Shown here: positions 12,370 to 16,886 of the stretch, in pieces
Layout: every line of letters starts with the position of its first letter
How positions within the stretch are numbered: the first letter of the stretch is position 1
Assembly: GCA_026419195.1 (NCBI GenBank)
Contig: JANZZV010000001.1
Location: forward strand, 310,001-374,000
DNA length: 64,000 nucleotides
From: Fervidobacterium sp.
Lineage (GTDB): Bacteria > Thermotogota > Thermotogae > Thermotogales > Fervidobacteriaceae
Direction of reading: 5' to 3'
Made by a program: the position numbers and the translations under genes
Notes under the pieces: model-generated
Database searches by the model: none
What the model was told of the DNA's origin: nothing
What the model saw: the letters and a program-made list of their open reading frames with translations, nothing else

Positions 12370-14535
12370 ATGAAAAGGTTGAGAAAATTAATTATATATA
12401 CACTATTATTAATAGGTACAATCGTTATGATTGCCCCGTTTGCTTGGATGCTTGTAACTTCTTTTAAACTTCCATCTGAAGTAAATTCATGGCCTCCCAA
12501 GTGGACAACAAAGTCGTTCTTAAGTCAAAGAGAAGTTAAAGTTATACCATCAACAGGAACAACATCTTCAGTTAAAGGTTTGAGCTTAAGAGAAGCTTTG
12601 ACCTTTGTTTCAAAGAAAACACATGGACTTGTCCTTTTGGTAAACGATGATCCATTTTACCGTGGCAAATTGACCATACGACTGAAAGGCAAAACCTATG
12701 CGAAGATAGATCCAACTAACTTCTATAATTTTATCAACTCAATAAAACAGCCTACACAGTTTCTCGTAACTGATGATGAGAAAAATAATCCAGAACTTTA
12801 CTTTGAAAAAGTATTGCTAAATTACGTTAGTGGTTCTACACCAGTTTTTAAGAGAGATATTTTCATAGATAGCCTTACAAGTTCTATAGAAACTTTACTC
12901 GACGGAATAGATACAATTCAAACTTTTGGCATAGAAAGAATTCAAAACGAAAATGAAAAAAGTCAATTTATCGCCTTTTTGGATAACAAAGTTGTTGAGT
13001 TACAAGAATTAAAAACAAAAATTCAAAAATTTAAGTCGGGTGAAAGTTTAATATTGAGTATACGTGAACTGGAAGAAATACACAAATTGTTGACAAATTA
13101 CAATTTGCTTTACAGCGGTTCCAACGAAGTTTCTGATAATTACAACAGTGCGATTGCTAATAGCATTTATAAGAATTTTGAGGAAATTGACTTCTTTTTG
13201 AAAATTTATAGTTACTTTGTCAGTGTCCAGAAATTTTTTGTTGACAGAGATATTGTGGCAAAGCCCATGAGTGATCGAGAGAGGATAAACTTATTGATTG
13301 AGAGAACAAAAGATCTTAAAGACCACGAATTAATCAAAAAGATTATATCGAAAAATGGTATGGATAACCTTCTCGATGAATTTGCAAAGGTAATTGATGA
13401 GAATGTTCAAAAGATGCATGGTATTAGTAGTAATGACTTAACAACCTTAAAATCGCTCATCAATGCAATAGTAAACGTGGGGTTTGAGAATAATTTAAAT
13501 GTAGAGGATGAACTAAAAGTATCTTTTAAAAAATTCATGGAAAAATTGGAATCAGTTGTTGGATTCAACCTTACATACACTTCAGCAAAATCTAAATTGG
13601 ATGCGTTTTCTCAAGAATACAAAAGTTCAGACGAATTGTTTAAAACTATCGCTCTAAATATACTCGAACTTCAATCCCTTAGAATGATTTACGAGAATAC
13701 AAAATATGCATGGAAGCTAATTGATGCTCCAAAGTTTGTAAGTGCAGTACTTGTTAAAGAAGGAAAAAATATTGAAATTGTGATGGAAGATGTTAGTCCT
13801 GTATACTTTATGGACGATGGCATAAATAAAGTTCAGGTCAGTTTTTCTACGATGGACATTTTAAAAAATGTGTTTCAAAACTATGCCCTTGCTTGGAATT
13901 CTGCACCATTTGGTAGATATTATTTCAATACGGTCTTTATATCCGTGGTGACGACAATTCTTGAGGTAATAATCTCAGCAATGGCGGCATATGCCTTTTC
14001 TTGGATGAATTTTCCAGGAAAAAGTATTTTGTTCAGTGTTTTTCTTGCTACAATGATGGTACCTGGTGAAGTTTTGCTCGTTCCTAACTTTATTACCATC
14101 ACAAAATTCGGATGGATAGATACGTATTATGCTCTGATAATTCCATGGGTCGTAAGTGTATTTTCAATTTTCTTGATGAGACAACATTTTATGAGTTTGC
14201 CAAGCGAGTTGTTTGACGCAGCAAAAATCGATGGCTGCTCTCATTGGAGGTACTTGTGGCAAATTGTTGTACCGTTGAGTAAGCCTGTCGTAATAACAAG
14301 TGCCCTTTTAAAGTTCGTTGGTAGCTGGAATTCGTTCCTTTGGGTGTTGATAGTCACCAACAGCCCAAAATACCGGACTCTAACTGTTGGACTATCGACG
14401 TTTAGTTCAGAAGTTGGAACACTTTACAATATGTTAATGGCAGCAGCAACCTTCAGTATATTACCTGTTGTGATCATTTTCCTCTTTACACAAAAGTATT
14501 TTGTTAGAGGAATTGCAAGAACAGGACTTAAATAG
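12370..14535 (+). CDS. Sugar-type ABC transporter permease, MalG family, with large extracytoplasmic insertion
   Basis: 721 residues, against about 280 for ordinary MalG-type permeases. Residues 1-45 give the normal helix 1 and loop (MLVTSFKLPSEVNSWPPKW). Residues about 46-500 are an insertion: soluble, Lys/Glu/Asn rich, largely helical or coiled-coil in pattern, no cysteines. The permease then resumes at FQNYALAWNSAPFGRYYFNTVFI (about 502-525) with five helices and the EAA loop LPSELFDAAKIDGCSHWRYLWQIVVPL (610-637). By the topology of MalG the insertion should face outside the membrane. It may serve as a built-in receptor or docking domain, since no binding-protein gene is present; that is inference. 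The frame is open throughout. The first permease lies 13 bases upstream. Confidence 0.9.
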   Translation: MKRLRKLIIYTLLLIGTIVMIAPFAWMLVTSFKLPSEVNSWPPKWTTKSFLSQREVKVIPSTGTTSSVKGLSLREALTFVSKKTHGLVLLVNDDPFYRGKLTIRLKGKTYAKIDPTNFYNFINSIKQPTQFLVTDDEKNNPELYFEKVLLNYVSGSTPVFKRDIFIDSLTSSIETLLDGIDTIQTFGIERIQNENEKSQFIAFLDNKVVELQELKTKIQKFKSGESLILSIRELEEIHKLLTNYNLLYSGSNEVSDNYNSAIANSIYKNFEEIDFFLKIYSYFVSVQKFFVDRDIVAKPMSDRERINLLIERTKDLKDHELIKKIISKNGMDNLLDEFAKVIDENVQKMHGISSNDLTTLKSLINAIVNVGFENNLNVEDELKVSFKKFMEKLESVVGFNLTYTSAKSKLDAFSQEYKSSDELFKTIALNILELQSLRMIYENTKYAWKLIDAPKFVSAVLVKEGKNIEIVMEDVSPVYFMDDGINKVQVSFSTMDILKNVFQNYALAWNSAPFGRYYFNTVFISVVTTILEVIISAMAAYAFSWMNFPGKSILFSVFLATMMVPGEVLLVPNFITITKFGWIDTYYALIIPWVVSVFSIFLMRQHFMSLPSELFDAAKIDGCSHWRYLWQIVVPLSKPVVITSALLKFVGSWNSFLWVLIVTNSPKYRTLTVGLSTFSSEVGTLYNMLMAAATFSILPVVIIFLFTQKYFVRGIARTGLK

Positions 14536-14573
14536 TGCAACTTTTAAAGATAATAACATACGATCTTTATCAT

Positions 14574-14605
14574 GTGCCCATATTTGGGCACTGTTTTTTC
14601 TTTCA
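14574..14605 (+). terminator. Rho-independent terminator after the permease pair
   Basis: Stem GTGCCCA/TGGGCAC (14574-14580 with 14585-14591), loop TATT, then a T-rich tract from 14594. Confidence 0.9.
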
Positions 14606-14682
14606 CTGCTTCACTAAATAACTAGAAAGTGTTAATATAAAATTGCACAAAATATTCCAACAAGCTTGTGGAGGTGATTATC

Positions 14683-15957
14683 ATAGAAAAAAGTAACACC
14701 AGGGAACGTACTCTCAAGCTCTCTGTAATAGAAGGTGCACTTTACACAATAGCGTTTAATGCTACACAAGGATTCGTATATTCAACGTTAGCTCTTTATT
14801 ATGATTTTGATCCTGTGGTGCTTTCTATTGTTGCTGTGCTTCCATCAACTTCACAAATGATTCAGCTTTTTACACCAATGGTTTATCGATTAGTACCATC
14901 CAAAAAGTACGCAATATTCTGGACCTCTTTAATTGCAAGATCTGTGTTTGTGATCATACCTTTGGCGTTGATTATGAACATCAAATCTCACATAATTGTT
15001 GTAATACCATTTATAGTTTTCAACATATTGAACAATGTTGTTGGAAATTTATGGACATCTGCAATGAAAAATATTGTACCGGAAGAAAGAAGAAACACTT
15101 ACTTTGGCTTTCGAAACACGGTTGCCACCTTCGCAGGTTTAAGTGCTTGGATTTTGTATTCATTAATTTTGCAAAACATGGATAGAAAGATTGGTTTAAT
15201 AGTGATCTACTCAGTTTCTTCATTTGTATTTATTCTTACCGCTTATTTTCTATATCTGCATGATATTCCAGATACAAGAGTCATTGACTACAGTATAACA
15301 ACGGTTTTTCAATCTCTGAAAAATCGAAAGTTTTTGAATTTCCTTATCTTTGTATTCATTTGGAATTTCGCAATTCAGTTCGCTGGTCCATTTTTTAGCT
15401 ATTTCGAAGTATCTTATCTTAAAGTTCCTTACTCGTATCTTGGTATTTTGAACATAATTAATTCCCTATTGTCAATGCTTATGTACACATTCTATGGCAA
15501 ATTATCGTCAAAAATTGGTGATAAAAACATGATCAGATATGGTATAACCATCGCTCTTGCTATACCTTTGCTGTATTCTTTAATGACGCCGAGAAACTAC
15601 AGATTTCTACTCCTATTAGATGTAATGATTGCAGCTTTAGCTTGGAGTGCAATAAATTTATCTTACTTCACTTTACTTTTAAAAATAATAGACGAACCCA
15701 GTGAAATATACATATCGATGCATGCAACGATAGCAGGATTGGCATCTTTAATAGCCTCTTACACGGGTGGAAAAACGCTAAGCTTGATAAAAAATTTTCA
15801 ATTTTCAGTCCTCTCCGGTTACAACGTGTTATTTTTAATAGCATTTTTCTTGAGAATTTTTACACTCTACTATTTTACTAAGCTTGACATCGGAGAAAAA
15901 CATAAGAGTATGAGATTCATAGAAATCGCTCAAGTTATCATAACAAGAAGATATTAG
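14683..15957 (+). CDS. Major facilitator superfamily transporter
   Basis: About 425 residues with some twelve hydrophobic segments and a short soluble N-terminus; substrate unknown. The start is odd. A near-perfect ribosome site GGAGGTGAT lies at 14670-14678, but no ATG, GTG or TTG sits at the right distance after it. In frame come ATT 14677, ATC 14680 and ATA 14683. The only upstream standard start, GTG 14668, overlaps the ribosome site itself and lacks its own. I list ATA 14683 as the probable start; GTG 14668 is the alternative. The gene follows a terminator and precedes ribF by about 50 bases. Confidence 0.8.
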
Positions 15958-16007
15958 GTTCTCCAGTTTCTCTTCTTAAATCAACTAATGGTAAGGGAGT
16001 GAAAGAA

Positions 16008-16886
16008 TTGTACTTAACAATCGGTGTATTTGATGGAGTTCACAAAGGTCATGCTAAAATTTTATCAAGATTAAGTCAGTTGGCAGAATTAACCGGAAAG
16101 AAAGTTAAAATATACACGATACTTTACCCTATGGAATATTATGCTGGTCAGTTTGATGGATTAATAACCTCTGTTGAAGACAGGATAGAATTACTCTCTA
16201 TCTACGGTGAAACGGAAATCCTTGAGTTACCAAAGATAAAGGATTTATCACCGCAGGAATTTTTTGAAAGCATAGTTAAAACTTCTAACAAGATAGATGG
16301 AATAATTGTTGGTCACGATTTTCGCTTTGGAAAGCATGGAAGCGGTGATACAGAACTCTTAAAAAAACTATGTGATGAACAAGGTGTCTATATTGAAATC
16401 GTTGAACCTGCTGTAATCGATGGGATAAGGGTTAGTAGTAGTTATATACGAAAACTTCTGAAAGATGGAAATGTAAGCAAGGCCAAGCAATTCTTAGGGA
16501 GAAATTACTCAGTACATGGTACTGTTTATAAAGATAAGCAAATAGGTAGAAAACTTGGGTTCCCAACTGCAAATGTGAAAAGATCCAATCATTTTCTTTT
16601 GGACCCAAAACCTGGTGTTTATGTTGTAAAAGTTTATGTCCCAGAACAGTTTTTCGGATTGATGAATGTCGGGTATAGACCAACTATAGAGAAGACAAAA
16701 AAGATAAAATACGAAGTATATATACTCGATTTCAATAAAGACCTTTACGGTAAGGAAATACGGGTAGAATTTTTGGAATTCTTAAGACCAGAAATTGAAT
16801 TTTCGAGTATTAGTGAGTTAATCAACCAAATGAATGAAGATGTCAAAAATGCTATGGAGGTTATAGATCGATATGAAAGAGACTGA
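16008..16886 (+). CDS. ribF: Bifunctional riboflavin kinase/FAD synthetase
   Basis: Makes FMN from riboflavin and FAD from FMN. The N-terminal nucleotidyltransferase part (about 1-150) has [16 protein letters not shown] with the GxFDGxHxGH motif, and [12 protein letters not shown]. The C-terminal flavokinase part (about 165-290) has [11 protein letters not shown] and PGVYVVKV. The start is probably TTG 16008, eight bases after GGGAG. GTG 15999 overlaps that ribosome site and would add three residues. Length of about 292 residues is normal. The 3' end overlaps nth by 14 bases. Confidence 0.95.

Follow-up and report, generated by a model that had tools for sequence, protein, structure and literature searches.

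A probable ATA start codon behind a nine-base Shine-Dalgarno sequence in an MFS transporter gene of Fervidobacterium

Where does translation begin in a gene that carries a strong Shine-Dalgarno (SD) sequence and has no canonical start codon in frame at a working distance from it? The question is raised by an MFS transporter gene in a 64-kb window (the whole 64,000-nt stretch of Fervidobacterium DNA that was analysed) of a 2.06 Mb draft genome (2.064 Mb in 118 contigs). The features concerned are the following.

14574..14591, + strand: terminator-like stem-loop followed by a T-run, between the ABC permease and MFS genes
14668..14676, + strand: two in-frame GTG codons (14668-14670 and 14674-14676) that overlap the SD
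14670..14678, + strand: SD, GGAGGTGAT, nine bases of AGAAAGGAGGTGATCC
14683..14685, + strand: proposed start codon ATA, aligned with the ATG of sister-genus genes; GGAGG begins 13 nt before it
14683..15957, + strand: MFS transporter gene (PF07690), 424 codons plus stop, intact

The sequence AGAAAGGAGGTGATCC is what we take to be the complement of the 3′ end of 16S rRNA. Direct reading bore out the nine-base ribosome site that a preliminary description had placed at 14670-14678, as well as its statement that ATT, ATC and ATA (at 14677, 14680 and 14683) are the only codons in frame at a useful distance. From the upstream stop, the MFS frame runs AAT TGC ACA AAA TAT TCC AAC AAG CTT GTG (14668) GAG and continues GTG (14674) ATT (14677) ATC (14680) ATA (14683) GAA AAA AGT. 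The upstream GTG, described earlier as a lone one, is thus one of two: the codon at 14668-14670 has one base in common with the SD, and the codon at 14674-14676 lies inside it. A GTG is probably what automatic annotation would choose here, and its use is unlikely. A downstream canonical start was ruled out; the next in-frame ATG, GTG or TTG is 44 codons past the ATA, within the conserved transporter. A start from another frame was rejected as well: there is no ATG in any frame of 14660-14700, and the out-of-frame TTG at 14666 reaches a TGA three codons later.

Spacing was counted in nt from the first G of GGAGG up to the start codon's first base. On contig C1, 163 of the 210 SD-led starts had a spacing of 12-14 nt, in a scan confined to 8-18 nt and biased toward 13. 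A second scan, with no preference for 13, covered 1.107 Mb of the 2.064 Mb and 421 GGAGG words at gene starts; an in-frame ATG stood at 12 nt in 96 cases, at 13 nt in 87 and at 14 nt in 39 (222 in total), and off this mode at 10 nt in 9 cases, at 7 nt in 1 and at 4 nt in 0. In the MFS gene the ATA is 13 nt away, the ATC 10 nt, the ATT 7 nt and the two GTGs 4 and −2 nt.

The presence of GGAGGTGAT in the window is by itself unremarkable (1 found, 0.27 expected; 24 of 100 shuffled sequences have at least one copy). What stands above chance is its placement, at the modal distance from the codon aligned with the sister-genus ATG; from the expected rate, the chance of the 9-mer falling within about 30 positions before the conserved N-terminus is roughly 6e-5. 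Nine copies were counted in 1.107 Mb, and seven have an ATG or GTG, in any frame, 10-16 nt further on. The other two are a copy at C1:130008 with no start codon behind it and the MFS copy, with ATA at 13 nt. One copy reads GGAGGTGATTCTCATG, a layout nearly identical to that of the MFS site. A whole-genome match to the pattern GGAGGTGATNNNNATA returned the MFS site only.

Start codons of nine MFS orthologues were assigned by inspection. G002 was left out of these counts, its best match (28%) being taken as a paralogue. From the start counts in general, L119 and L154 (partial), further partial matches in G002, G001 and G004, and the unreadable L125 were excluded. The likely start is ATG in eight orthologues and TTG in one, the nearest (G005, about 70% identity). 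The two sister-genus orthologues, G013 and G009, open with ATG GAA AAA TTA AAT and ATG GAG AAC CTC ACT and then read DERTLKLS; the gene of the window reads ATA GAA AAA AGT AAC ... RERTLKLS, with (E)RTLKLS as the common core. The ATA at 14683 aligns with the ATG of both genes. This alignment supports the ATA without proving it, because the length of the N-terminus varies among the remaining orthologues; one of the two best-aligning genes, that of G009, probably comes from a metagenome bin, on a contig covered about 2-fold. Because its spacing of 13 nt agrees with the 12-14 nt mode and it aligns with the sister-genus ATG, the ATA appears clearly the best of the three near-cognate candidates. The earlier proposal of an ATA or ATC start holds for a non-standard start, which is well supported, with ATA as the best choice; ATC, at 10 nt, is a poor one. 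We consider ATA 14683 the probable start of the MFS gene in this Fervidobacterium species, and the simplest reading is that the ATA probably arose by one transition from an ancestral ATG, itself deduced from the relatives.

The infC gene served as an internal control. In E. coli, infC starts with AUU and is autoregulated. Its conserved start in the genus is ATT in all 7 readable genes among nine genomes, a count that leaves out G002 (start unreadable) and G004 (no infC match). In the genome studied here the ATT is 14 nt from GGAGG in AGGAGGGTG and the next canonical codon is 31 codons on; the layout is the same as that of the MFS gene, with a GTG inside the SD. In G003, G007 and G008, an in-frame TAG overlaps the SD by its first G, and the stretch from that stop to the ATT is free of ATG, GTG and TTG. 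In another family (f2), infC has ATA in three genomes (G020, G022 and G024) and ATC in a fourth (G026). Because infC uses ATT in 7 of 7 readable Fervidobacterium genomes, the machinery for near-cognate starts is present in the genus.

We then surveyed 989 gene frames, in 1.107 of the 2.064 Mb, for SDs with no canonical start behind them. A strong SD was found in 469 frames; a canonical start followed at 9-17 nt in 417, there was none in range in 2, and other codons occupied the position in 50. The codons in these 50 are of many types and include five further ATA cases, all of which have canonical codons in frame ahead of the ATA; most of the 50 were judged to be SD-like words inside genes or to have a canonical start just out of range, and they are not put forward as near-cognate starts. 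A strict filter left 15 SD hits in 14 frames, eight with GGAGG and seven without. Six of the eight GGAGG-type orphan SDs have ATA, ATT, ATC or CTG at 12-15 nt. The remaining two have, respectively, AAA with a second SD-like word and a TTG behind it, and an ATG at only 6 nt with an ACG at 12 nt; the latter gene (G000:C3:148003) may be mutL, which its N-terminus resembles. None of the seven hits without GGAGG has one of these four codons at 11-15 nt (one has AAG and one AGG). The chance of six in eight is p about 7e-4, taking 0.095 as the background for each codon and allowing two codons to each SD, a post hoc value that is indicative only because the GGAGG split and the four codons were chosen after seeing the list.

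The six genes are those for the MFS transporter (ATA), infC (ATT), a radical SAM protein (ATT), prmA (CTG), an LPG_synthase_TM protein (CTG) and an alpha/beta hydrolase (ATC). In the radical SAM gene (L147:1504-1506; G000:C1:267141), the ATT lies 15 nt from GGAGG in AAGGAGGTG, and the first in-frame ATG, GTG or TTG is 71 codons in; the ATT recurs in 6 of 6 readable relatives from the genus and its sister genus, and it lies within a 40-nt overlap with the upstream gene. The prmA gene (L123:1501-1503; G000:C3:204841) has an apparent CTG start behind ATGAGGAGGG that seems to overlap the stop of the upstream gene. All 8 relatives that a shared word brought up have this CTG (L127 being counted by DNA only), and in four of them (L126, L130, L131 and L132) a TTG follows three codons later; the CTG would be compelling only where no TTG is nearby, that is, in this genome and in G005, G007 and G001. 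Conservation of both starts is partly forced by the overlap with upstream genes.

The LPG_synthase_TM gene (L111:1501-1503; G000:C1:130475) has CTG behind AAAGGAGG and a TTG six codons after it; at the CTG position, TTG stands in 7 of 7 readable relatives, a one-step difference like that of ATA for ATG in the MFS gene. For the alpha/beta hydrolase gene (L135:2431-2433, minus strand; G000:C4:85993), the possible ATC is 12 nt from GGAGG; six of the eight relatives shown have ATG, at varying positions, and the case for an ATC start appears weak.

Could the ATA be a base-call error or a strain polymorphism, the real or common allele being ATG at 14683-14685 in an ordinary gene? A single base change would turn the codon into a perfect canonical start, the assembly is a draft in 118 contigs, and the species is represented by a single genome, with the nearest orthologue of the gene about 70% identical. 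Against an error, near-cognate starts at other genes of this genome are found again in other species and so cannot be errors, and a draft assembly normally carries far fewer errors than one per start codon. We regard this explanation as unlikely, while giving it real weight.

Loss of the start codon could also mean that the MFS gene is at the onset of decay and effectively off, as the lack of a canonical start and the absence of the ATA from relatives would allow. The gene, however, keeps a nine-base SD and is free of stops over its 424 codons up to the frame stop at 15955-15957. Its product matches Pfam PF07690 with 44.2 bits (curated cut-off 33.4, E 1.5e-11) and belongs to that family. Differences to the nearest orthologue over 422 codons are 0.291, 0.104 and 0.573 at first, second and third codon positions. 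Because of these differences we take the gene to be maintained, with a pattern of purifying selection as read from sequence, and decay is very unlikely.

Translation from GTG 14674 or 14668, SD-independent or leaderless, would give a protein beginning MII... or MEVII..., and the two GTGs are the only canonical in-frame codons near the N-terminus. Their positions relative to GGAGG argue against such use, as do genes with the same word. In 119 frames with GGAGGTG, a canonical start follows at 9-17 nt in 117, the two exceptions being the MFS and radical SAM genes; the MFS gene is the only one of the 119 with just SD-overlapping GTGs as canonical codons. The GTG of GGAGGTG is itself in frame in 39 words, and because a canonical start also follows in 38 of them, all save the MFS gene, genes do not rely on the GTG of their own SD. 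Moreover, the analogous GTG of infC is absent in G003, G007 and G008, which retain the ATT. A GTG start is hardly credible on this evidence. A start at ATC 14680 or ATT 14677 can be all but set aside, since both codons are near-cognate and in frame but have spacings at which the scan found an in-frame ATG 9 times and once, against 222 at 12-14 nt, and the sister-genus ATG aligns with the ATA.

The ATA is probably a genuine, species-specific and weak near-cognate start of a known kind (AUA or AUU, as in Staphylococcus and Listeria). The nine-base SD at optimal spacing would position the 30S subunit with its P site over AUA, where initiator fMet-tRNA could pair with two of the three bases in spite of the mismatch at the third position; the protein would still begin with Met. 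Initiation factor IF3 discriminates against near-cognate start codons in E. coli. Here it would let a fraction of the complexes through, with output well below the AUG level. Initiation at the ATA, its efficiency and the IF3 step are inferred, the last from E. coli. The change from ATG to ATA in this lineage may have been tolerated, or selected as a static cut in transporter synthesis. A rare start codon is an uncommon and already known way to keep protein production low.

Known cases offer several parallels. In a study of S. aureus (PMC13009471), infC, ccpN and citZ are given as starting with AUA and cvfC1 with AUU; infC, cvfC1 and ccpN are described as having extended SDs. AUA and AUU reporters there reached about 10% of the AUG level in poor medium, and ccpN up to 30% in rich medium (PMC13009471). 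There, initiation was established by ribosome profiling and reporters, whereas the MFS ATA is proposed from sequence. The codons of cvfC1 and ccpN are conserved beyond the species, while the AUA of citZ, found in one strain lineage, is the closer parallel to the MFS gene (PMC13009471). As in the MFS gene, the SD of infC is followed by AUA, AUU or AUC at normal spacing; unlike the MFS gene, infC encodes an initiation factor and its near-cognate start is widespread, whereas the MFS ATA is confined to one species and no obvious reason exists for a transporter to be under IF3 feedback.

In Listeria, a report (PMC13068326) describes an ATG-to-ATA change in rsbW that lowered translation without abolishing it and that can be selected, together with fixed non-canonical starts in six conserved genes. 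The rsbW change is the same single-base step as that proposed for the MFS gene; the rsbW mutants came from laboratory selection and have a phenotype, while the MFS substitution is presumed natural. Thermotoga maritima, which like Fervidobacterium belongs to the Thermotogota, is reported to have strong SDs (PMC3636130), and strong SDs may ease tolerance of near-cognate codons. A search of one open-access library, over titles and the starts of abstracts, gave no report of near-cognate starts in Fervidobacterium among the matches listed.

The preliminary description had linked the non-standard start to translational control, and static low output is the most that this suggestion retains. An Rfam search of 14400-16100 gave no match at E<=1, and RNA folding of 14640-14760 was unremarkable (z −0.52). 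ATA, ATT or ATC occurs at the presumed start in none of the nine orthologues, which is not the pattern of a conserved regulatory start of the infC or ccpN type; in the genus sample of nine genomes, one per species, the ATA was seen in one genome. These searches turned up neither a known RNA element nor a marked structure, so the ATA would act as a static dimmer and not a regulated one, and active regulation is putative at most. Translational coupling between the permease gene and the MFS start was considered and is unlikely, because the terminator-like stem-loop intervenes; the gap from the permease stop to the ATA is 147 nt. Coupling may help the radical SAM and prmA starts, and the MFS gene is without such help.

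Usual gene finders allow only ATG, GTG and TTG, and would annotate the MFS protein with a false N-terminus encoded by the ribosome site of its gene. The MFS ATA is modest by itself, and its significance is slightly raised by the near-cognate companions in the genome. Up to five companions among 989 frames suggest near-cognate starts in roughly 0.5% of Fervidobacterium genes, which could be found by seeking SDs with no canonical start, and a phylum with strong SDs makes it testable how SD strength buys freedom in the start codon. It is a long shot that these genes form an IF3-linked translational set, in which near-cognate genes with strong SDs would shift their output with the level of IF3 or initiator tRNA; such a set would comprise infC, the radical SAM gene, prmA, an LPG_synthase_TM-type membrane protein gene and the MFS gene, and perhaps the alpha/beta hydrolase gene.

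Several observations concern the surroundings. A scan for sigma-70-like promoters in 14480-14800 found 0, with 0.9 expected in shuffled sequences. Elsewhere in the genome, an N run inside a long frame of L098 (about G000:C3:209800) is an assembly gap or a masked stretch; the frame itself has, to our impression, a flagellar look. The MFS gene lies between an ABC permease gene (12370-14535) upstream and ribF (15999-16886) downstream; the permease gene precedes the MFS orthologue in 9 of 9 loci and ribF follows in 8 of 9; in the remaining locus the contig stops first. The ABC permease gene has 721 codons with its Pfam permease domain confined to 534-716, and the C-terminal 400 to 480 residues are about 68-74% identical in nine relatives. 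In ribF, an SD-like GGGAGTG overlaps the first GTG, at 15999, and TTG 16008 is the likelier start (15999-16010); similarity begins at the residue of TTG 16008 in five of eight relatives and at the GTG in the other three.
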